Source of the DNA: Campylobacteraceae bacterium
GTDB taxonomy: Bacteria; Campylobacterota; Campylobacteria; Campylobacterales; Sulfurovaceae
Direction: 5' to 3'
DNA: 43,158 nucleotides
NCBI GenBank assembly: GCA_027081405.1
Contig: JALWKO010000050.1
Coordinates: forward strand, 1-43,158
Within the stretch, counting starts at the first letter, position 1. Each line of letters begins with the position of its first letter. Below are positions 1 through 41,261 of this stretch, piece after piece. The position numbers and the translations under genes were made by a program. The notes beneath the pieces were generated by a model. The model made no database searches. It was given only the letters and a program-made list of their open reading frames with translations, and had not been told where the DNA came from.

Positions 1-1725
1 AAACTGGTGGCCACCCCCGGCCATCCTCTCTACAACGGTGCCCTGTGCCGATTGCTCAACAAAGAGATCCATGAAGCCCCCCGGATCACGACCCCGAGGA
101 TCGACGGGAAAGCGGTAAGCATGGACGAAGCGCTGGAGGCGATCGCCGAGGCGCTGGGGGTGGAGAAGAAACTGCTCTGGCGGGGATCGGGCAATTTGGG
201 GGTGATGCAGCAGGTGACCGATCTGCTGATGGAAAAAATCGGCGGAACCCTCACCCACGGATCGCTCTGCGACGGCCCGGGACAGGCGGGGATCCGGGAA
301 GGGAGGGGGATCAACCGGCAGCTCCCTCCCGAGCAGATCGCCAAGGCCGACGTCATCGTCGTCTGGGGGCGCAACCTCCCGGTGACCAACGCCCACCTCA
401 TGCCCCTCATCGAAGGGAAAACCCTCGTGGTGATCGATCCGGTCCGCACCACGCTGGCGAAAAAAGCCGATCTGCATATCCAGCTCAAACCCCGCAGCGA
501 CGTCTATCTGGCCCTGCTGCTGGCCCGTTTCATCACCATGGAGGACAGCCAGAACGACGAATGGCTCGGGGAGTGGGGGACGGAGTTCGACGAATTCTAC
601 GACTTCACCCGGACCTTCCGGATCAAAGCGCTGCTGGAGTATATGGGGCTGAGTCTGGATGATATGGGGGACCTGCTTTTGCTGCTGCAAAAAGAGCGGG
701 TCGTCTTCCTCGTCGGCGGCGGGGTGCAGAAATACTCCATCGGCCACTACACCCTCTGGGCGATCGACTCGCTGGCGGCGACGCTGGGGCTTTTCGGCCG
801 GGAGGGGTGCGGCGTGAGCTTCCTGGGGGAGTCGCGGCAGGGCTTTGACAATCCCTTCGCCGTCAAGACCCCCACTGTGCCGATTGTGACCGCTCCCTTC
901 GACCGTTTCGAGACGGTTCTGGTGCAAGGGGGCAATCCGGCGGGAAGCATGCCCGGCAGCGGCGAAGTGATCGAAAAGCTGCAAAAGGTGAAAAATCTGA
1001 TCTATTTCGGCCTCTACGAGAACGAAACCAGCGAACTGGCCCGGATCGTCCTGCCGGCCAAAAGCTTTCTCGAAAAAGAGGATCTGCGCCTGAGCTACGG
1101 CCATCATGCCGTGACGCCGATGCATAAAGCGATTGAGAGCGAGATCGGTATCAGTGAGTACGATTTCACCGCCGAGATGTTCCGGCGTCTGGGGCTGGAG
1201 GGATTGAAAAGCGAAGAGGAGTATATGCAGATCTGGCGGGATCAGTGTCTCGAGCGCGACGGCAAACTGCTGCTGCCCGATTACGAGGAGCTCCCCTACA
1301 CGGAGGGATTTGGGGAGGATGGGGGAGAGGAGTTCGTCTTTATGGACGATTTCGACGACGATTTCGAAGACACCCGCCGTTTCCGCAAAGCCCGCAAGCT
1401 CAAAAACAAAGAGGAAGCGATTACAGAATATTGGCTTCTTACTCCCAAACAGAGCCACTCCCTCAATACCCAGTTTGAGCGTTCTGAGCGGATCCACCTC
1501 CCCCCCGAAGCGGGCTTCGTAGAGGGGGAGAAGGTCCTCGTCTTTTCCGAATACGGGGAGATCACCCTCGTCGCCCACGTCGACGAGCGGCTCCGGCGTG
1601 ACTGCGTCCTGATCCTCGCCGGAACCAGAGGGGTCAACCACCTCACCCCGCCGATGCTTAGCGAAGAAGGGGACGGGGCCTGCTATCAGGAGGTGAAGGT
1701 GAAAATAGTGAGGAGTGAGGAGTGA
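1..1725 (+). CDS. Molybdopterin oxidoreductase (formate dehydrogenase-like), 5' end outside window
   Basis: The reading frame is open to base 1, so the N-terminus is missing. The first visible residues (PGHPLYNGALC) look like the end of the N-terminal Fe4S4 domain of molybdopterin oxidoreductases, with the Cys as a likely last cluster ligand. Then come a dinucleotide-binding region (VIVVWGRN, about residue 118), the motif LCDGPGQAGI (Cys near residue 88), which matches the Cys/Sec molybdenum-ligand loop of formate dehydrogenases, and a C-terminal molydopterin-binding domain (NTQFERSERIHLPPEAGF onward). A very acidic stretch (DDFDDDFED) followed by a basic one separates the last two domains and is unusual. 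No nuoH follows, so a standard NuoG is less likely. The substrate cannot be told. The last residues, VRSEE and the stop, are encoded by a heptamer repeat array. Confidence 0.75.
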   Translation, partial: KLVATPGHPLYNGALCRLLNKEIHEAPRITTPRIDGKAVSMDEALEAIAEALGVEKKLLWRGSGNLGVMQQVTDLLMEKIGGTLTHGSLCDGPGQAGIREGRGINRQLPPEQIAKADVIVVWGRNLPVTNAHLMPLIEGKTLVVIDPVRTTLAKKADLHIQLKPRSDVYLALLLARFITMEDSQNDEWLGEWGTEFDEFYDFTRTFRIKALLEYMGLSLDDMGDLLLLLQKERVVFLVGGGVQKYSIGHYTLWAIDSLAATLGLFGREGCGVSFLGESRQGFDNPFAVKTPTVPIVTAPFDRFETVLVQGGNPAGSMPGSGEVIEKLQKVKNLIYFGLYENETSELARIVLPAKSFLEKEDLRLSYGHHAVTPMHKAIESEIGISEYDFTAEMFRRLGLEGLKSEEEYMQIWRDQCLERDGKLLLPDYEELPYTEGFGEDGGEEFVFMDDFDDDFEDTRRFRKARKLKNKEEAITEYWLLTPKQSHSLNTQFERSERIHLPPEAGFVEGEKVLVFSEYGEITLVAHVDERLRRDCVLILAGTRGVNHLTPPMLSEEGDGACYQEVKVKIVRSEE

Positions 1726-1980
1726 GGAATTTTGGTGCGCCGCATGGCAGCGCAGTCCAAATGAGAAATGAGAAATTTCGGTGCGCCGTGAGACGGCGCG
1801 ATTTGATGATGGATGATGGATTTTGGATGTTGGATTAAAAGATGTTGTAGCGCAACGTCTCCGTATGTCTAACAACTAGCGACTATCGACTGGTGACTAG
1901 CGACGTTGCCGAAGGCAACACGATTCGCGACGTGAGGCCCGTAGGGCCGTGCTTGCGACTATTGACTTAATGTTTTCCCC
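1707..1980. repeat. Heptamer-array/hairpin mosaic downstream of the oxidoreductase
   Basis: AGTGAGG three times at 1707-1727, overlapping the oxidoreductase stop. AATGAGA twice at 1760-1773. GGATGAT/GGATTTT/GGATGTT units at 1811-1836. CGACTAG-type units at 1873-1904. Between them lie GC-rich mini-palindromes: GTGCGCCG/CGGCGCG around 1781-1800, GTTGCC-GAA-GGCAAC at 1905-1919, and GGCCC-GTA-GGGCC at 1936-1948. No gene is visible. Confidence 0.85.
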
Positions 1981-2112
1981 TTCATTTGTTTTTCTTTGTT
2001 CACGCGACAAAGAAAAACGAAACGAAGCAAAGAAAAAGAAAACGCGAGGTACTGGCGTCTGGGTGGAGATACCATGCTTTGGCGAAACCGTCTAGCGGGA
2101 TTGTGATCCCAT
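1981..2112. repeat. Dispersed element R, copy 1
   Basis: The first 83 bases (1981-2063) are identical to 15068-15150; similarity continues more loosely to the GGGAT-TGTG-ATCCC hairpin near 2098. The element opens with a 15-bp inverted repeat, T-rich arm 1985-1999 and A-rich arm 2007-2021, with one T-G pair and a 7-base loop TCACGCG. A purine-rich stretch follows, then GCGAGGTACTGGCGTCTGG. A degenerate third trace lies at 9973-9991. Short open frames through it are not supported as genes. Confidence 0.85.
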
Positions 2113-2118
2113 TAGGGA

Positions 2119-2326
2119 ATGGAGGATTGAGAATGGAGAATGGAGAATTTTGGGGCGCCGCAGTATTTGAATGAGAAATGAGAAAAGAGAAATGAGAAAT
2201 TGCGGGGCGTTGCGTTGCAACGCGTATTTTTGGAAGCGGGAATTCATTCCCGCATTGCAGGGCGAAAGTCCTGCCTCCAATACACCAATAGACCAATAAC
2301 GTCGCCGAAGGCGACACTTCTTGCGA
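2119..2326. repeat. Heptamer arrays with double-hairpin module, copy 1
   Basis: ATGGAGA-type units at 2119-2146 and AATGAGA-type units at 2170-2197, then GCGTTGC-GTT-GCAACGC. The double-hairpin module spans 2232-2278: GCGGGAAT-TC-ATTCCCGC followed by GCAGG...CCTGC. CCAATA repeats follow at about 2276-2298, then GTCGCC-GAA-GGCGAC at 2301-2315. Confidence 0.8.
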
Positions 2327-2888: not shown

Positions 2889-3116
2889 ACAAATTAGAAA
2901 TGAAGAGTTAGAAATGAGGAATTTTGGGGCGTTGCGTCGCAACGCGATTGCTTGGAAGCGGGACTTCAGTCCCGCATTGCAGGGCTGAAGCCCTGCCCCC
3001 AATGACCAGTGACCAATGACGAATGACGTTGCCGAAGGCAACACGATTCGCGATGTGAGGCCCGAAGGGCCGTGCTTGTGACTTTAACTCTGCCGACTGC
3101 CGACTGTCGACTGCTT
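2889..3116. repeat. Heptamer arrays with double-hairpin module, copy 2
   Basis: ATTAGAA/ATGAAGA/GTTAGAA/ATGAGGA units at 2893-2920, then GCGTTGC-GTC-GCAACGC. Double-hairpin module at 2954-3000: GCGGGACT-TC-AGTCCCGC and GCAGGGC-TGAA-GCCCTGC. AATGACC-type units at 3001-3028, GTTGCC-GAA-GGCAAC at 3028-3042, GGCCC-GAA-GGGCC at 3059-3071, and CTGCCGA units at 3090-3114. Confidence 0.85.
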
Positions 3117-8160: not shown

Positions 8161-8181
8161 TCGAAACGGGGTTTCGATCAA
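8157..8181 (+). other. Perfect hairpin over the dapD stop codon
   Basis: 11-bp stem TTGATCGAAAC (8157-8167), loop GGG, GTTTCGATCAA (8171-8181). The left arm contains the dapD stop; the right arm joins directly onto an AGTGAGG heptamer array. There is no following T-tract, so a classical terminator is unlikely, though RNA 3'-end protection is possible. Confidence 0.7.
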
Positions 8182-8275
8182 GTGAGGAGTGAAGAGTGAG
8201 GAGTGAGGAATTGCGTGGCGCCGCGTTGCGGCGCGATGGAAGGAAGGTGGGACTCCAGTCCCGCATTTGGGGTGC
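8181..8275. repeat. AGTGAGG array and hairpins after dapD
   Basis: Four heptamers (AGTGAGG, AGTGAAG, AGTGAGG, AGTGAGG) at 8181-8208, then GGCGCCGC-GTT-GCGGCGCG and a shortened double-hairpin module with GGGACT-CC-AGTCCC at 8249-8262. Confidence 0.8.
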
Positions 8276-8282
8276 GTAAACG

Positions 8283-8522
8283 ATGAACGGCGGACTGGAT
8301 CTGAACAAACGGGTCTTTCTCCTGGGGGTGCTGACCCAGAAAGAGGGGGAGACGATCCGGGATACGATCCTGGCGCTGGCCAATACCGGTATGTTCACCC
8401 CCAAAGAAGGCAAGCGTATCCGTAAGGAGCTCGAAGCCGAAGGGTATCTTCTGGAGGGGAAACTCACGGTCAAAGGGATGATCGAAGCTAAGAGGGCCGA
8501 AGAGGAGTTCCGGCTCTCTTGA
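8283..8522 (+). CDS. Small conserved-looking protein of unknown function
   Basis: 79 residues, highly charged and probably helical (QKEGETIRDTILALANTGMF; EGKRIRKELEAEGYL; LTVKGMIEAKRAEEEFRL). The pattern helix-helix-turn plus a short hairpin would fit a small winged-helix or other nucleic-acid-binding fold, but I recognise no family. No strong Shine-Dalgarno precedes the ATG, and the upstream DNA is the repeat block after dapD. It lies just before an S4 RNA-binding protein gene in the same direction. Confidence 0.6.
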   Translation: MNGGLDLNKRVFLLGVLTQKEGETIRDTILALANTGMFTPKEGKRIRKELEAEGYLLEGKLTVKGMIEAKRAEEEFRLS

Positions 8523-8873: not shown

Positions 8874-8875
8874 GG

Positions 8876-8906
8876 ATTGAGAATTGAGAATGGAGAATTG
8901 AGAATG
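8876..8906 (+). promoter_or_regulatory. Heptamer array that forms the trpD ribosome-binding site and start
   Basis: Units ATTGAGA, ATTGAGA, ATGGAGA, ATTGAGA at 8876-8903, then ATGG. The only Shine-Dalgarno (GGAG, 8892-8895) lies in unit 3, and the trpD start ATG (8904) is the first triplet of unit 5. Gain or loss of one unit would alter spacing. Confidence 0.75.
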
Positions 8907-9890
8907 GAACATATATCCCAGGTCAAAAAGGCATTCGAGCGGCTCTTTGCCAACGAGATGGCTGAGGAGGAGGCGCGGGATTTTCTGGTGGGTCTCTACG
9001 AAAAAGGGGAGAGTCCCGAGGAGATCGCCGCCGCGGCGGACGTGATGCGTGCGCATTCGGTGAAGCTGCCGGTGCCCGAGGATCTGCGCGACAAGCTGGT
9101 CGACATCGTCGGCACCGGCGGGGACAAAAGCGGCAGCTTCAATATCTCCACCACCGTAGCGCTGCTGTTGGCCGCTTCGGGGAGCTATGTGGCCAAGCAC
9201 GGCAACCGCTCCATCACGAGCCGTTCGGGGTCGGCCGATGTGCTGGATGCGCTGGGGGTGCGCCTCGATCTGGATCCCGAGCGGCAGGTGCGCCTGCTGG
9301 AGGAGACGGGATTCACTTTCATTTTCGCCATCCACCACCATCCGGCCATGAAGCACATCATGCCGATCCGGAAATCCCTCGATCACCGGACGATCTTCAA
9401 CATCCTGGGGCCGCTGACCAATCCGGCGGGGGCGCGCAAATACCTCCTGGGGGTCTTCTCCCCGGACTTCATCCGTCCGATGGCCGAAGCGCTGGAGCGG
9501 CTCGACGTAATCCGGGCTTTCGTCGTCAGCAGCGAAGACGGGATGGACGAGATCTCCCTGGCGGCGCCGACCCGTTTCGCTTACGTGGAGGGTGGAAAGG
9601 TGAGCGAAGGGGTCATCGAACCCGAAACCCACGGATTCACGCGTGCCCCCAAAGAGGCGATTCTCGGCGGGGAGGCCGAGGAGAACGCCGCCATCACCCG
9701 AGCGATCCTCGGCGGCGAGGAGCGGGGCCCCAAACGGGACATCGTGCTGCTCAACGGCGCCTATGCCCTCTTTGCCGACGGGAGGGCGCGGGATATCCCC
9801 GAGGCGGTCGAGATCCTCATCGACACGATCGAAAGCGGCAAGGCGGCGAAGCACCTGGAGGAGATCGTCCGGATCTCCAACGCGCTGTAA
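8904..9890 (+). CDS. trpD: Anthranilate phosphoribosyltransferase
   Basis: 328 residues, the normal length for the single-domain enzyme, which joins anthranilate and PRPP in tryptophan synthesis. Seen motifs are VGTGGDKSGSFNISTT (about residues 68-84; PRPP/Mg loop), KHGNRSITSRSGSADVLDALG, and DGMDEISLAAPT. It is not part of a visible trp operon, as is often the case where trp genes are scattered. The start ATG and its Shine-Dalgarno are both supplied by a heptamer repeat array. Confidence 0.94.
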   Translation: MEHISQVKKAFERLFANEMAEEEARDFLVGLYEKGESPEEIAAAADVMRAHSVKLPVPEDLRDKLVDIVGTGGDKSGSFNISTTVALLLAASGSYVAKHGNRSITSRSGSADVLDALGVRLDLDPERQVRLLEETGFTFIFAIHHHPAMKHIMPIRKSLDHRTIFNILGPLTNPAGARKYLLGVFSPDFIRPMAEALERLDVIRAFVVSSEDGMDEISLAAPTRFAYVEGGKVSEGVIEPETHGFTRAPKEAILGGEAEENAAITRAILGGEERGPKRDIVLLNGAYALFADGRARDIPEAVEILIDTIESGKAAKHLEEIVRISNAL

Positions 9891-9896
9891 TAACAA

Positions 9897-9966
9897 GTAG
9901 CGAGTAACTAGTAACTAGAAACTAGTAACTAGAAATTAGTAACTAGAAATTAGCAACGAGTAACCG
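9897..9966. repeat. Ten-unit heptamer array
   Basis: The clearest period-7 array in the window. Consecutive units are GTAGCGA, GTAACTA, GTAACTA, GAAACTA, GTAACTA, GAAATTA, GTAACTA, GAAATTA, GCAACGA and GTAACCG, without a single indel over 70 bases. Substitutions sit at recurring positions of the unit. It lies directly after trpD. Confidence 0.92.
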
Positions 9967-10068: not shown

Positions 10069-10536
10069 GTGAAATCTTCAGATCCATCAAACGACAAACG
10101 ACAAACGACAAACGACGTTATCGAGATCGAAGCGGGGTTGGGGGAGCTGGATCGTGTGGTCGACGCGATGCGGCGGATGATCCCCTCCGACGCGGTGATC
10201 TCCCTGGAGGGGGATCTGGCAGCGGGCAAAACCACCCTCGTACGGGCGATCGCCGAAGCGGCGGGGACGGCGGGGGCCGTCACCTCTCCCACGTTTTCGC
10301 TTCAGCATCGATACGGCGGGGGACTTTTTCACTACGATCTGTATCGGAGCGGTTTCGACGAACTGGCGGAATTGGGGCTCTTGGGGGAATTCGATGCCCC
10401 CGGCTGGCATCTGGTGGAGTGGATGGACGATCGGCTCAAAGCCTTTTTAACCGCCGCGGGCTATAATCTCTATCGTGTTTCGATCCTTCCGACGGAGGAT
10501 CGGCGAATTTACCGAATCGGACCCCTCGATGCATAG
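10069..10536 (+). CDS. tsaE: tRNA threonylcarbamoyladenosine biosynthesis ATPase
   Basis: 155 residues. TsaE is the ATPase partner of TsaB/TsaD in making t6A on ANN-decoding tRNAs. Visible are a Walker A motif (EGDLAAGKTTL, about residues 47-57), VTSPTF, HYDLYR and LVEW, all typical. The GTG start at 10069 follows AAGGA by six bases and no better start is available downstream. With this start, residues about 8-16 are encoded by four AAACGAC repeats, so the N-terminus is longer than usual and repeat-derived. It overlaps lptB by 8 bases. Confidence 0.9.
   Translation: MKSSDPSNDKRQTTNDVIEIEAGLGELDRVVDAMRRMIPSDAVISLEGDLAAGKTTLVRAIAEAAGTAGAVTSPTFSLQHRYGGGLFHYDLYRSGFDELAELGLLGEFDAPGWHLVEWMDDRLKAFLTAAGYNLYRVSILPTEDRRIYRIGPLDA
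10089..10116 (+). repeat. Perfect heptamer repeat inside the tsaE reading frame
   Basis: AAACGAC four times without mismatch. Because 7 is not a multiple of 3, loss or gain of one unit shifts the tsaE frame relative to its GTG start. Confidence 0.85.
10462..10467 (+). promoter_or_regulatory. Possible internal -10 box for lptB
   Basis: TATAAT inside the end of tsaE, about 62 bases before the lptB start. It is within coding sequence and no -35 is evident, so it may be chance. Confidence 0.3.
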
Positions 10537-14821: not shown

Positions 14822-15067
14822 GGGGAGTTGAGAATTGAGAATGGAGAATTTTGGGGCGCCGTGCAGCGCGACAGATGTTGGATTGTGGGGCGTTGCTTTG
14901 CAACGCGTATCTTTGGAGGCGGGACTTCAGTCCCGCAGTGCAGGGCGAAACCCCTGCCTCCAATACACCAATAGACCAATAACGTTGCCGAAGGCAACAG
15001 TTCTTGCGACTTGCGACGTGGGCCCCGGAGGCCGTGTGTTCGACATTTGATTGGATTGATTTTTCTC
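14822..15067. repeat. Repeat mosaic upstream of rpsF, part 1
   Basis: GTTGAGA/ATTGAGA/ATGGAGA at 14827-14847, then GGCGCCGTGCAGCGCG and GCGTTGC-TTT-GCAACGC. Double-hairpin module copy 3 at 14915-14961 (GCGGGACT-TC-AGTCCCGC). CCAATACA-type repeats at 14960-14981, then GTTGCC-GAA-GGCAAC at 14984-14998. No gene seen between rpsF and leuA. Confidence 0.85.
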
Positions 15068-15203
15068 TTCATTTGTTTTTCTTTGTTCACGCGACAAAGA
15101 AAAACGAAACGAAGCAAAGAAAAAGAAAACGCGAGGTACTGGCGTCTGGGCGGAGATGCCATTGGATGGGGGAATCGTGTAGCGTGGGATTGCGATCCCA
15201 CGG
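15068..15203. repeat. Dispersed element R, copy 2
   Basis: Bases 15068-15150 are identical to 1981-2063, including the long T-rich/A-rich hairpin. After that the copies diverge but both keep a GGGAT-TGYG-ATCCC hairpin near their end (here TGGGAT-TGCG-ATCCCA). Same orientation as copy 1. Confidence 0.85.
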
Positions 15204-15605
15204 GGAGATGGAGAGTGGAGAATTGAGGATTGAGAATGGAGGATGGAGAATTTTGGGGCGCCGCGGGGCGGCACGATGTGAGTGAAGAGTGAAAAATGAA
15301 GAGTGAAGAATGGCGGGGCGCTGTGTAGCACGGTTTGATGATGGATTTTGGATTTTGAATTTTGAATTTTGGATTTTGGATTGCGGGGCGCCTAATGGGC
15401 GCGTTTTGAATGAGAAATGAGAAGATAGAAATGAGAAATTTCTGGGCGTTGCTTCGCAACGCTTCCAATGACGAATGACATCGCCGAAGGCGACACCTCT
15501 TGCGACTTGAGGCCCGTAGGACCGTGCTTGCGACTGAATAAGGGACGAAGCCCCGTTCAAACGACGAACGACGGACATCGTGGCCCGAAGGGCCGAGCGT
15601 GCGCC
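15204..15605. repeat. Repeat mosaic between element R and leuA, part 2
   Basis: ATGGAGA-type units at 15208-15249 (six units), AGTGAAG-type at 15281-15308, GGATTTT/GAATTTT at 15343-15382, and AATGAGA-type at 15409-15436. Each is followed by a GGGGC-led mini-palindrome (for example GGCGCC-TAAT-GGGCGC and GCGTTGC-TTC-GCAACGC). Then TCGCC-GAA-GGCGA at 15481-15493, two AACGACG units near 15562, and GGCCC-GAA-GGGCC close to the leuA stop. Confidence 0.85.
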
Positions 15606-19053: not shown

Positions 19054-19145
19054 AGTGGGTAAGTGGGTAGTGCGCAGTGGGTAATATAAAAAGAAGAAAG
19101 TAAAGCTTTCATCCGAAACTCTTCACTCTTCACTCCTCACTGTCA
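19054..19145 (+). repeat. Heptamer-type repeats in the mnmG leader
   Basis: GTGGGTA-like units at about 19054-19083 and TTCACTC/CTCACTG units at about 19116-19142, the latter being the reverse complement of the AGTGAGG family. They lie inside the predicted mnmG 5' untranslated region. Confidence 0.6.
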
Positions 19146-26021: not shown

Positions 26022-26280
26022 AGTGAGGAGTGAAGAGTGAGTTTCCGTCGTTTGTCGTTTGAACGGGGCTTCACCTCTCTTTGTCGTTTGAGACTGGTCG
26101 GTAGTCGGCAGTCGGCAATCGGCAGTAAGTGCGCCTTCGGCGCCGTTATTGGTGTATTGGTGTATTGGTGTATTGGAAGCGTTGCAAAGCAACGCTTAGC
26201 GAAATTCTCAATTCTCAATTCTCCATTCTCCATTAAAAATCGGTTCCTCACTCCTCACTTCTCATTCCTCGCTCCAGAAC
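26022..26280. repeat. Heptamer arrays between moaA and queE
   Basis: AGTGAGG units at 26022-26041. GTCGTTT pairs at 26047-26060 and again at 26083. GTCGGTA/GTCGGCA/ATCGGCA at 26097-26124. GCGCC-TTC-GGCGC at 26131-26143. Period-8 GGTGTATT repeats at about 26149-26175. GCGTTGC-AAA-GCAACGC, ATTCTCA/ATTCTCC units at 26204-26231, and CCTCACT units at about 26246-26275. No gene seen. Confidence 0.85.
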
Positions 26281-37000: not shown

Positions 37001-39451
37001 ATGGGCCCCACTTTTCCCGTCCATTCGGTCCTCGACGATCTGCGCGACGCGCAGGCGACGCGTCGGACGGCGATCCTGCAGGCGGCTCCCGGAGCGGGGA
37101 AAACCACCGTCGTGCCGATCGCGTTGATGGAAGAGCCCTGGCTCAAGGGCAAAAAGATCCTACTCCTCGAACCCCGTCGCCTGGCCGCCCGCTCCGCCGC
37201 CGAACGGATGGCCGAGACCCTCGGCGAAGCGGTGGGTGTGCAGGTGGGCTACCGGATGCGGGGAGCCCAGCGGATCGGTCCCGAAACACGGATCGAAGTG
37301 ATCACCGAGGGGGTTCTAGGGGCGATGCTACGCAGCGATCCGGCACTGGAAGATGTGGGGCTCGTGATCTTCGACGAATTCCACGAGCGCTCCCTCGAGG
37401 CCGATACGGGACTGGCGTTGACGCTGCAGGTGCGGCAGCTCTTTCGGGACGATCTGCGGCTGCTGGTGATGTCGGCGACTCTCCCGGAGGGGATCGGGCG
37501 GGTTTTGCCCGACGCGCCGCGGATCGAAGCGCCGGGCAAGATGCATCCGGTGCGGATCCTCCACCGCGATCCCAGAGCTCCCCGCGTCACTCCCGCCACC
37601 GTCGCCGACGAAGTGGCTTCGGAAACCCTCCGGGCCCTCAAAGAGGAGGAGGGGGATATCCTGGTCTTCCTCCCGGGGATGCGGGAGATCGTGCGTGCCG
37701 AGGCGATCCTGAAGGGGCGTGTGGGGGAAGGGGTGTCGATCCTTCCGCTGCACGGTTCGCTCCCGGTTCAGGCGCAGCGGGCCGTGTTGGCGCCCGCTGC
37801 GGAAGGGGGCCGCAGGGTGGTCCTCGCCACCAACGTGGCCGAAACCTCCCTCACCATCGAGGGGACACGGGTGGTGATCGACGGAGGATACGAGCGGAGT
37901 GTCGTCTACGACCCCACGCTGGGATTTCCCCGCCGCGAAACACGCCCCATCAGCAGGGACTCCGCCATACAGCGTGCCGGTCGTGCGGGACGGACCGCTC
38001 CGGGGAGTTGCCGCCGCCTGTGGGAAGAGGGGCGCGCATTGCCCCCTTCGCGCATCCCCGAAATTCTCCGGAGCGATCTGAGCGCGCTTTGTCTGGAGCT
38101 GGCCGCCTGGGGCGCCCGCCCCGACGAACTGGCATGGATCGACCCTCCGCCGGAACATGCGGTACGGGAGGCGGAGCGGGTATTGATATTATTGAATATG
38201 ATTACCGAAGAGGGGGCGATCACCCCGTATGGGGAGCGGGCTCTGGCTTCGGGACTTCCTCCGCGGCTGGCCCACATGCTCCTGAAGGGGGATGCGGAGG
38301 GGTACGGTTACGAAGCGGCGCTGCTGGCCCTGTGGTGGCAGGAACGACCCGAAGGGGTCGCCCACGCCGACCTCCGGATCGTCCTGGAGCGGATCCACGC
38401 ACGGCTCCGCCGTGACGAACGGCTGCGTCGGGCGCTGGAGCGGATCCTTCGCAGAAGTTCGATCGCCCCGTCCCATCGGATCGAAGTCGAGGCGGCCGGA
38501 AGGCTGACGGCACTGGCCTATCCCGAACGGATCCTCCGCCGAAAGGAGCGGGAGCGCTTCGTTTCGGTGGCGGGGAGAGGGGCCCGGGTGATGGATGGGG
38601 CCCTGGCGGAGGAGCAGTGGCTGGCCGCCGCCGGAATGGGGGGCGAGGGGGTTGAAGCCCGGGTCTATGAAGCGGCTCCGGTGGAGGAGTCGTGGGTGCG
38701 GGAACGCTACGCCGCGCGGATCGAGTCGGAGGAGCGGATCGCCCTGGACGAGCGAAGGGGCCGGATCGAAGCGTATGCACTGGAGCGGCTCGGAGCGATC
38801 GAGCTGGAGCGCCGGCCTCTGCACGAACCGGATATGAAGACGGTCGCAAGGCTCTGGTGCGGTTATCTGCGCGAGCTCCCCCCGGAGCGATGGCCCGTGG
38901 GGGAGAAGGCCCGAAGGCTCCTCGATCGGCTCCGATTCGCGGCCCTGTACGATCCGGAGCGGTTCGGCGGGATCGCAGAGGGGCTGCTTGCGCAGTGTGA
39001 GGAGACCGTCGGAGAGTATCTGGGATCGGCGCGGAGTGTGGAAGAGCTAGAGCGGATCGATTGGCCCGGGATCGTCATGGGGGTACTGGGGTGGAAGCGC
39101 TCCAGGGAGCTGGATCGCTTCGCGCCCGAACGGATCGAGATCCCCAGCGGCAGGACGGTGCGCATCGACTATACCGATCCTGCCCACCCGGTCCTGGCGG
39201 TGAAGCTACAGGAGCTTTTCGGATGGAGGGAGACTCCCCGGATCGCCGCAGGGAAGGTCCCGCTGCGGATCCACCTCCTCTCTCCGGCGGGGCGGCCGGT
39301 GCAGATCACCGAAGATCTGGAACATTTCTGGCGCCACGGCTACCCCGAAGTGCGCAGAGAGCTCCGGGGCCGCTACCCCAAACACCCCTGGCCCGAAGAC
39401 CCCTTCACCGCGCCCCCCACGCGGGGAGTGAAATTGAGAGTTGAGAATTGA
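37001..39451 (+). CDS. hrpB: ATP-dependent helicase HrpB
   Basis: 816 residues, the family length. Motif I AAPGAGKTT (about 29-37), motif II DEFHER (the DEAH variant used by HrpB), MSATLPEG, TNVAETSLTIEGTRVVIDGG, and QRAGRAGRTAPG, followed by the HrpB-specific C-terminal domain (ERIEIPSGRTVRIDYTDPAHPVLAVKLQELFG). RNA/DNA helicase of unclear role. It starts six bases after ruvA. The last residues (LRVEN) and the stop are encoded by a heptamer array, beyond the end expected for the domain. Confidence 0.94.
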   Translation: MGPTFPVHSVLDDLRDAQATRRTAILQAAPGAGKTTVVPIALMEEPWLKGKKILLLEPRRLAARSAAERMAETLGEAVGVQVGYRMRGAQRIGPETRIEVITEGVLGAMLRSDPALEDVGLVIFDEFHERSLEADTGLALTLQVRQLFRDDLRLLVMSATLPEGIGRVLPDAPRIEAPGKMHPVRILHRDPRAPRVTPATVADEVASETLRALKEEEGDILVFLPGMREIVRAEAILKGRVGEGVSILPLHGSLPVQAQRAVLAPAAEGGRRVVLATNVAETSLTIEGTRVVIDGGYERSVVYDPTLGFPRRETRPISRDSAIQRAGRAGRTAPGSCRRLWEEGRALPPSRIPEILRSDLSALCLELAAWGARPDELAWIDPPPEHAVREAERVLILLNMITEEGAITPYGERALASGLPPRLAHMLLKGDAEGYGYEAALLALWWQERPEGVAHADLRIVLERIHARLRRDERLRRALERILRRSSIAPSHRIEVEAAGRLTALAYPERILRRKERERFVSVAGRGARVMDGALAEEQWLAAAGMGGEGVEARVYEAAPVEESWVRERYAARIESEERIALDERRGRIEAYALERLGAIELERRPLHEPDMKTVARLWCGYLRELPPERWPVGEKARRLLDRLRFAALYDPERFGGIAEGLLAQCEETVGEYLGSARSVEELERIDWPGIVMGVLGWKRSRELDRFAPERIEIPSGRTVRIDYTDPAHPVLAVKLQELFGWRETPRIAAGKVPLRIHLLSPAGRPVQITEDLEHFWRHGYPEVRRELRGRYPKHPWPEDPFTAPPTRGVKLRVEN

Positions 39452-39690
39452 GGATGGAGAATTTCGGGGCACCGCGTGGCGGCACGATGTGAGTGAAGAA
39501 TGAAAAATGAAAAGTGAAGAATGGCGGTGCGCCGCGTGGCGCGGATTGATGATGGATTTTGGATTTTGGATTGTGGGGCGTTGCGTTGCAACGCGTTTTC
39601 AAACGATACACAACGTATCCCCAATGACCAGTGACCAATGACGAATGACGTTGCCGAAGGCAACAGTTCTTGCGACCAGAGGCCCGAAGG
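39433..39690. repeat. Heptamer-array/hairpin mosaic after hrpB
   Basis: ATTGAGA/GTTGAGA/ATTGAGG/ATGGAGA at 39433-39460 (covering the hrpB stop), AGTGAAG/AATGAAA units at 39492-39519, GGATTTT units at about 39553-39571, GCGTTGC-GTT-GCAACGC, AATGACC-type units at 39622-39649, GTTGCC-GAA-GGCAAC at 39650-39664, and GGCCC-GAA-GGGCC at 39681-39693. No gene seen. Confidence 0.85.
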
Positions 39691-39731
39691 GCCGTGTGTG
39701 CGACTCGATCGTATTTTGCATGTGAACCGTC

Positions 39732-41096: not shown

Positions 41097-41124
41097 CCGC
41101 ACTCCTGTGCGGATGGTTAACGTG
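41085..41124 (-). promoter_or_regulatory. Perfect 18-bp hairpin holding the pgsA start codon
   Basis: Arms 41085-41102 and 41107-41124 are exact inverted copies; the loop on the message is AGGA (41106-41103), part of the Shine-Dalgarno AGGAG. The start codon (41096-41094) is paired inside the stem. The outer arm joins directly to a GGATTTT heptamer array. Confidence 0.85.
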
Positions 41125-41261
41125 GATTTTGGATTTTGGATTTTGGATTTTGGATTGAAGGATTATAAATTGAAGATTATTGCTTGAAAAAAACCTCTCA
41201 AACCAATACACCAATACACCAATACACCAATACACTAAAAAATTCATTCTCAATCCTCCAT
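41124..41261. repeat. Tandem repeats between pgsA and the reductase gene
   Basis: GGATTTT four full units plus a partial at 41124-41157; CCAATACA four units of 8 bases at 41203-41234; then ATTCTCA/ATCCTCC units up to the hairpin at 41262. Confidence 0.85.

Follow-up and report, generated by a model that had tools for sequence, protein, structure and literature searches.

Elhai and colleagues are said to have described, in 2008, tiny hairpin repeats of Nostoc that often lie inside heptameric tandem repeats, and mobility was reportedly inferred for them. Among the longer tandem repeats, heptanucleotides are the most frequent class in most of the bacterial genomes examined (Mrazek et al. 2007, summarised in PMC4679880 and PMC4692102), and a proposal standing since 2007 links their excess to the contact length of DNA polymerase (Mrazek et al., summarised in PMC4679880). 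Multicopy sites made of four octamers or five heptamers, mostly in opposite-strand pairs, are described for Geobacter metallireducens as putative sites of a global regulator, with binding by IHF/HU as a proposal (PMC2700814). Direct repeats of TAACTGA are common to marine Beggiatoaceae, cyanobacteria and Bacteroidetes, and horizontal transfer is suspected; they consist of 2-6 tandem heptamers, mostly intergenic and mostly just upstream of start codons (PMC4679880). REP and REPIN elements, which occur with RAYTs, are short dispersed intergenic palindromes, also found as inverted pairs (PMC3116915).

Here, we describe heptamer arrays in the window, i.e. the whole stretch of 43,158 nucleotides that was analysed, which is contig C50 of a 1.93-Mb genome (G000). 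We consider it probable that these arrays belong to a modular repeat family that is scattered between genes and spread by copying, and whose vocabulary is small and shared. The features of the window are collected in Table 1, where the letters A to E and T refer to the word families defined below.

Table 1. Heptamer arrays, 8-bp arrays and hairpins of the window
Coordinates	Strand	Feature	Unit or sequence	Context
1704..2200	+	composite		TRF, sequence, grammar, cross-locus alignment
1704-1730	+	A array	AGTGAGG	1704..2200
1759-1776	+	A array	AAATGAG	1704..2200
1805-1828	+	B array	GATGATGG/TGGATTT	1704..2200; hairpins between arrays
1875-1904	+	D array	ACTAGCG	1704..2200
2122-2148	+	A array	GAATGGA	1704..2200, after ~150-bp dispersed element (~1970-2115)
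2170-2200	+	A2 array	AATGAGA	1704..2200, 3' part
2203..2315	+	hairpins, before 8-bp array	GGGGCGTTGC..GCAACGCG, GCGGGAATTCATTCCCGC, GCAGGGC..CCTGC	
2277-2298	+	8-bp array	CCAATACA/CCAATAGA	2203..2315
2301-2315	+	hairpin	GTCGCCGAAGGCGAC	after 8-bp array
2893..3114	+	composite	hairpins GGGGCGTTGC..GCAACGCG, GCGGGACTTCAGTCCCGC, GCAGGGCTGAAGCCCTGC	degenerate A array
3003-3028	+	C array	CCAATGA	2893..3114
3028-3042	+	hairpin	GTTGCCGAAGGCAAC	2893..3114
3055-3074	+	hairpin	GTGAGGCCCGAAGGGCCGTG	2893..3114
3090-3113	+	D array	CTGCCGA	2893..3114
8181..8211	+	A array	AGTGAGG	then GC-rich hairpin
8874..8908	+	A array	GAATTGA/GAATGGA	5' end of trpD
9891..9964	+	flagship array	TAACTAG family, 10.6 degenerate units	3' of trpD stop codon
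10022..10048	+	D-family array	GCGACTA	
10085..10116	+	E array	CAAACGA, 4 units	within 5' coding end of tsaE
14825..15017	+	composite		A array, hairpins
14960-14981	+	8-bp C array	CCAATACA	14825..15017
14984-14998	+	hairpin	GTTGCCGAAGGCAAC	14825..15017, end
15003-15017	+	D array	CTTGCGA	14825..15017, end
15204..15530	+	composite		hairpin after each array
15208-15252	+	A array		15204..15530
15280-15309	+	A array	GAGTGAA	15204..15530
15342-15382	+	B array	TGGATTT	15204..15530
15409-15439	+	A2 array	AATGAGA	15204..15530
	+	end of 15204..15530	CCAATGACGAATGAC; hairpins ATCGCCGAAGGCGAC, GAGGCCCGTAGGACC	
19054..19141		inverted pair	AGTGGGTA forward, ACTCTTC (A family) reverse	before mnmG
26022..26275	-	composite		between moaA-like and queE-like genes
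26245-26275	-	A array	TCCTCAC	26022..26275
26200-26234	-	A array	AATTCTC	26022..26275
	-	hairpin	GCGTTGC..GCAACGC	26022..26275
26147-26176	-	8-bp C array	TATTGGTG	26022..26275
26095-26126	-	D array	GTCGGCA	26022..26275
26047-26061	-	E array	GTCGTTT	26022..26275
26022-26040	+	A array	AGTGAAG	26022..26275, last array
39432..39700	+	composite		between hrpB and Sir2-family gene
39432-39463	+	A array	AATTGAG	39432..39700; hairpin follows
39491-39518	+	A array	GAGTGAA	39432..39700; hairpin follows
39548-39576	+	B array	TGGATTT	39432..39700; hairpin GGGGCGTTGC..GCAACGCG follows
39625-39650	+	C array	CCAATGA	39432..39700
39650-39664	+	hairpin	GTTGCCGAAGGCAAC	39432..39700, end
	+	hairpin	GGCCCGAAGGGCC	39432..39700, end
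41123..41235	+	array group		
41123-41156	+	B array	TGGATTT	41123..41235
41202-41235	+	8-bp C array	ACCAATAC	41123..41235; A-like reverse units next

The period of these arrays is sharply defined. TRF on the window returned 57 rows, 32 of which have period 7, against 0.65 period-7 rows per shuffled window at unchanged settings. A 309-kb sample of the genome (the window plus stretches L026-L042; 16% of the total) contains 56 exact lag-7 runs of 10 bases or more, and an order-3 Markov copy contains none; besides lags 7, 14 and 21, every lag has at most nine runs. Autocorrelation therefore bears out the fixed period of 7 proposed in the initial annotation, with an excess at 7 and its multiples only. 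The ten indel-free heptamers that it gave as its example are also there, within a TRF row (9891-9964) of degenerate units with 76% identity. Among 25 further array positions that it listed, 23 match a period-7 TRF row and two, 2893 and 26083, do not; faint 7-bp echoes are visible at 2893. Left out of that list were period-7 arrays at 8521, 15003, 19054, 19118, 26047, 26245 and 39553, as well as four 8-bp CCAATACA arrays at 2277, 14960, 26147 and 41202.

The arrays are longer than chance and mainly intergenic, as is characteristic of heptamer LSSRs: 1911 of 2281 array bases lie between genes, where intergenic status and gene edges were taken from the calls of a simple home-made model. The 74 intergenic arrays have a modal size of 4.0-4.5 units, with one above seven units, and the expected number of arrays is 1.2. 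The genes of the window are ordinary housekeeping genes (trpD, tsaE, leuA, mnmG, cytochrome b, moaA-like and hrpB), and Rfam at gathering thresholds gave no match in the whole window. The hrpB-type helicase (37001-39451) has its best named match in Roseivirga, at 39% identity, with Marinomonas and Treponema behind; from these matches the gene may have been transferred horizontally, and records from its own genus may be hidden from the match search.

The units had been taken for many unrelated sequences, but they form about seven families of related words: A (GARTGAR, GAATTGA and GAATGGA), B (GGATTTT), C (CCAATGA, plus the 8-bp form CCAATACA), D (CTNNCGA), E (CAAACGA), T (TAACTAG) and O (GTGYTAM). 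Both the families and the polarity rule given below were defined on the arrays of three species, G000 and the same-genus genomes G011 and G001. At least 132 of 135 arrays from these species differ from a reference unit by no more than one mismatch (the full tally is 138, with 135 within one mismatch and three at two), which contradicts the idea of a free unit; the reference units account for 2.7% of all 7-mers exactly and for 40% within one mismatch. An exact word match was found in 60 of 97 arrays from seven genomes outside the training set. The four 8-bp C arrays of Table 1 fill the slot that 7-bp CCAATGA takes elsewhere, so one word family has two period lengths.

Orientation follows the gene edges. 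Seen from the nearest gene edge, families A, B, T and O point inward, towards the intergenic region, and C, D and E point outward. This rule is obeyed by 121 of the 135 training arrays within one mismatch, and by 62 of 66 when each region contributes a single array. Since it holds alike at 3' (77/87) and 5' (44/48) gene edges, polarity is independent of transcription. Applied unchanged to other genomes, the rule holds for 83 of 91 arrays, including 14 of 15 in G039, which belongs to a different family of the same order; these 91 arrays are not fully independent, because the seven comparison genomes include five congeners, whose arrays may be shared by descent, and the G039 loci were partly picked by one word. 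Same-family pairs across region midpoints number 10 inverted and 8 direct, with some clear opposite-strand examples. Stop-codon placement was dropped as a cause of polarity, as B, C, D and E have no regular stops. The earlier remark on stops in all three frames is right for units with TGA, TAA or TAG and wrong for TGGATTT, CCAATGA and CAAACGA; in three species, the CAAACGA array is an open stretch of coding sequence at the tsaE N-terminus.

The arrays alternate with small GC-rich hairpins, in the recurring order A, hairpin, A, hairpin, B, hairpin, double hairpin, C, hairpin, D, hairpin, D, E. RNA folding of the composite at 2890-3115 gave a z of -3.55, which we read as driven by the hairpins, and DNA folding of another whole composite gave an unexceptional z of -0.89. 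Two types of hairpin are embedded in arrays of a single word, in the TTGCGAC and CAAACGA modules of several species, with the forms CTTGCGAC[GT]TGA-stem-loop-CGTGCTTGCGAC (type 1) and CAAACGACAAAGA-GGGGCGAAGCCCC-GTTCAAACGACAAACGAC (type 2). The stem of type 1 varies in sequence between and within species and keeps its pairing: there are 23 double-changed cells against 9.5 in shuffles, and none of 500 shuffles was as high, with rows gathered by flank pattern without a pairing requirement and 20 of 26 then chosen for clean alignment. Separately, a dispersed element of ~150 bp (CTTCATTTGTTTTTCTTTGTTCACGCGACAAAGAAAAACG...) lies between composites at 1970-2115 and 15060-15205.

Copying was assessed by an all-against-all alignment of intergenic regions within the 16% genome sample. 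By this test, 33 of the 62 intergenic arrays belong to stretches that align over 100 bp or more with a different intergenic region. One such pair, L033:5776-6548 and L037:19028-19700, shares 431 bp at 92% identity across several array positions and the hairpins between them. Variant units also recur at the same place across loci. At 3003 and 39625, both C arrays run CCAATGA-CCAGTGA-CCAATGA-CGAATGA, the 8-bp arrays at 2277 and 14960 have the identical order CCAATACA-CCAATAGA-CCAATA, and the penultimate unit is an ATAG/ATCG variant in 7 of 10 A2 arrays ending AAATGAGAAATT (manual count). Independent slippage at each site would not produce this recurrence, which, taken with the long alignments, means that module copying explains many arrays that slippage alone does not. 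The alignments show that long composites were copied whole between unrelated intergenic sites.

The initial annotation had argued that copying could not explain the arrays, and had named their turning out to be copies of a few longer elements as one result that would overturn its reading. The first statement is not supported, and the second situation obtains for about half of the arrays (33/62); the other 29, the flagship among them, are in no long alignment within the sample. Of that reading, the excess at period 7 stands; the step to a process acting on a free unit fails for about half of the arrays and is doubtful in the others. No insertion footprint or target duplication was found at the arrays, and a plasmid BLAST with the core of one composite gave no match. 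Elsewhere in the sample, L026 1-587 and L028 2295-4234 (contig C49) share a 512-bp repeat of 94% identity that looks prophage-like.

Arrays of A words are present in nine genomes of the genus, G000 included, and in several genera of the same family. They are absent from the congeners G003, G004, G008 and G012, which have no period-7 arrays in the sampled stretches and no A word genome-wide. The reversed A-word pattern is unusable as a control, since, being degenerate, it also fits units such as GAGTGAG. Among 298 genomes of the phylum, four (G000, G001, G011 and G039) carry three copies of CCAATGAC in a row, with 79 matches in G039 and none in the G039 congeners searched, and the GGGGCRAAGCCCCGTTC hairpin is limited, among 60 genomes, to G039 and the congeners that have arrays. 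Word families and polarity recur in other species, in other genera and in one other family of the order. Within the phylum as sampled (stretches L026-L042, L073-L112, L156-L170 and L185-L204), heptamer arrays occur in higher-GC genomes and are almost missing from low-GC ones, with a GC of ~0.41-0.58 in genomes rich in arrays and mostly 0.26-0.39 in arrayless ones; G003, with a GC of 0.49 and no arrays, is an exception. The initial annotation knew of no heptanucleotide repeat in Campylobacterota, but one is on record for Helicobacter pylori (cited in PMC4692102).

The orthologous moaA-queE regions of G000, G001, G005, G006, G007, G009, G010 and G011 were compared. The A, E, D and C8 parts are common to G007 and G000, and several arrays are near four units. 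G007 has an extra block consisting of a double hairpin, a hairpin, B, a hairpin and an array, and G001, compared with G007, is short of one B-plus-hairpin unit. Arrays are missing here from G005 and G009, and G010 has a short remnant only. At this one orthologous region, species differ by whole blocks and by one hairpin-plus-array unit. In the trpD-tsaE interval, G001 carries the flagship TAACTAG array at the orthologous site, with fewer units, and G007 has a relative of the ~150-bp dispersed element in its place. The CAAACGA array in the N-terminal part of tsaE has four units, in frame, in G000, G001 and G007, although gain or loss of a single unit would break the reading frame. In G011, ~26 CTCAACT units adjoin a TAACTAG array (L080 4086-4433). 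Very long perfect arrays in G011 and in G039 show that slippage also acts, strongly in these two genomes.

One rival account is that each array was made independently in situ by 7-bp slippage, e.g. through a polymerase footprint, so that the unit is whatever sequence was local and any resemblance comes from composition. The restriction to period 7 and its multiples, the polymerase-footprint hypothesis in the literature, the very long arrays of G011 and G039, and the shorter flagship of G001 all agree with it. As a general account we nevertheless regard it as unlikely, and as the sole explanation of the composite arrays it is refuted: it leaves unaccounted for the word families and polarity common to other species and one other family, the same order of variant units in different loci and the 431-bp copies, and it sits badly with a length mode near four without a decaying tail and with a tsaE array that keeps four units in three species. 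That same length peak, ~28-32 bp, is what would be expected if the arrays were binding sites of a nucleoid or regulatory protein reading about four 7-bp steps, with selection fixing length, words and mirror polarity. The independence of polarity from transcription fits such sites, as does, weakly, the slight majority of inverted same-family pairs, and the paired Geobacter metallireducens sites of four octamers or five heptamers, with their proposed IHF/HU binding, offer a parallel (PMC2700814). We hold this to be rather improbable, in view of the orthologous regions without arrays in G005, G009 and mostly G010, the four congeners without period-7 arrays in sampled stretches and without the A word genome-wide, the many different words that one protein would have to read, and the copying of hairpins and whole composites along with the arrays.

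Two enzymes were weighed as agents. If the modules were REP/REPIN-like elements moved by a RAYT, i.e. a Y1 transposase, one would understand the dispersed intergenic palindromes with conserved flanking bases and the covarying stems, and a Y1 protein (an open frame of ~257 aa) is indeed present in G000, G001 and G011. There is, however, no Y1 match in G002, G005, G006, G007 and G009, all of which have A-word arrays (G005 is 99% and G009 96% complete), and there is one in the arrayless G003 and G008. Y1 presence thus does not track the arrays, Y1 was rejected as the mover, and we rate this account as very unlikely. A telomerase-like reverse transcriptase laying down heptamers from a short RNA template would give a fixed step with several words, and such enzymes are conceivable by inference only. 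RVT_1 has no match in the nine array-bearing genomes of the genus, and it does match in the arrayless G004 and G008, so that at the sensitivity of PF00078 a reverse transcriptase as maker is refuted, and its chances seem to us close to nil.

We return to a copied, modular repeat family. A module would consist of about four tandem copies of one heptamer word, drawn from a set of about seven, with a short GC-rich hairpin that lies next to the copies or interrupts them, and modules would chain in fixed order and polarity. We suggest that tandem duplication and slippage first form the arrays and still change some of their lengths; slippage probably founded and lengthened some of them, the flagship included. 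Copying may afterwards carry the modules to further sites, by way of intermediates, single-stranded or arising in recombination, that use the hairpins; an enzyme acting in trans may take part, and insertion would be tolerated mainly between genes. More tentatively, the heptamer-hairpin modules might form a class of their own among very small mobile elements, with words and polarity common to unrelated bacterial families, moved by machinery that is neither RAYT nor reverse transcriptase and perhaps transferred horizontally. Should many heptamer arrays prove to be copied modules with common words and a fixed polarity, a model of slippage alone would be wrong for them, and attention would shift to the agent of copying and to the reason why module orientation tracks gene edges rather than transcription. 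The shared vocabulary, the polarity rule and the module structure appear to be new detail; a search of literature text for the heptamer word strings gave one unrelated match.

Among known systems, the small dispersed repeats of Nostoc, in another phylum, resemble the present modules in layout; a small hairpin within a heptamer array, with the same word on both sides, is what the TTGCGAC and CAAACGA modules have. The likeness to REP/REPIN elements lies in short dispersed intergenic palindromes and inverted pairs, and the difference in a RAYT/Y1 gene that does not track the modules (PMC3116915), five array-bearing congeners having no cognate Y1 match. Compared with the heptanucleotide LSSRs of Mrazek (summarised in PMC4679880 and PMC4692102), the words here are few and common to loci and species, polarity and order are fixed, hairpins are attached and arrays are copied as composites. 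The Geobacter sites likewise have four to five tandem units of 7-8 bp, with different words, and the alternation with hairpins and the ordered chain seen here are not described for them in the accessible part of that report (PMC2700814). TAACTGA is absent as an array unit from the unit lists of the sampled genomes. The present arrays resemble the TAACTGA repeats in being tandem heptamers, mostly intergenic, with one word recurring in distant lineages, and differ from that one-word system in having about seven words, hairpins and positions at both 3' and 5' gene edges (PMC4679880).
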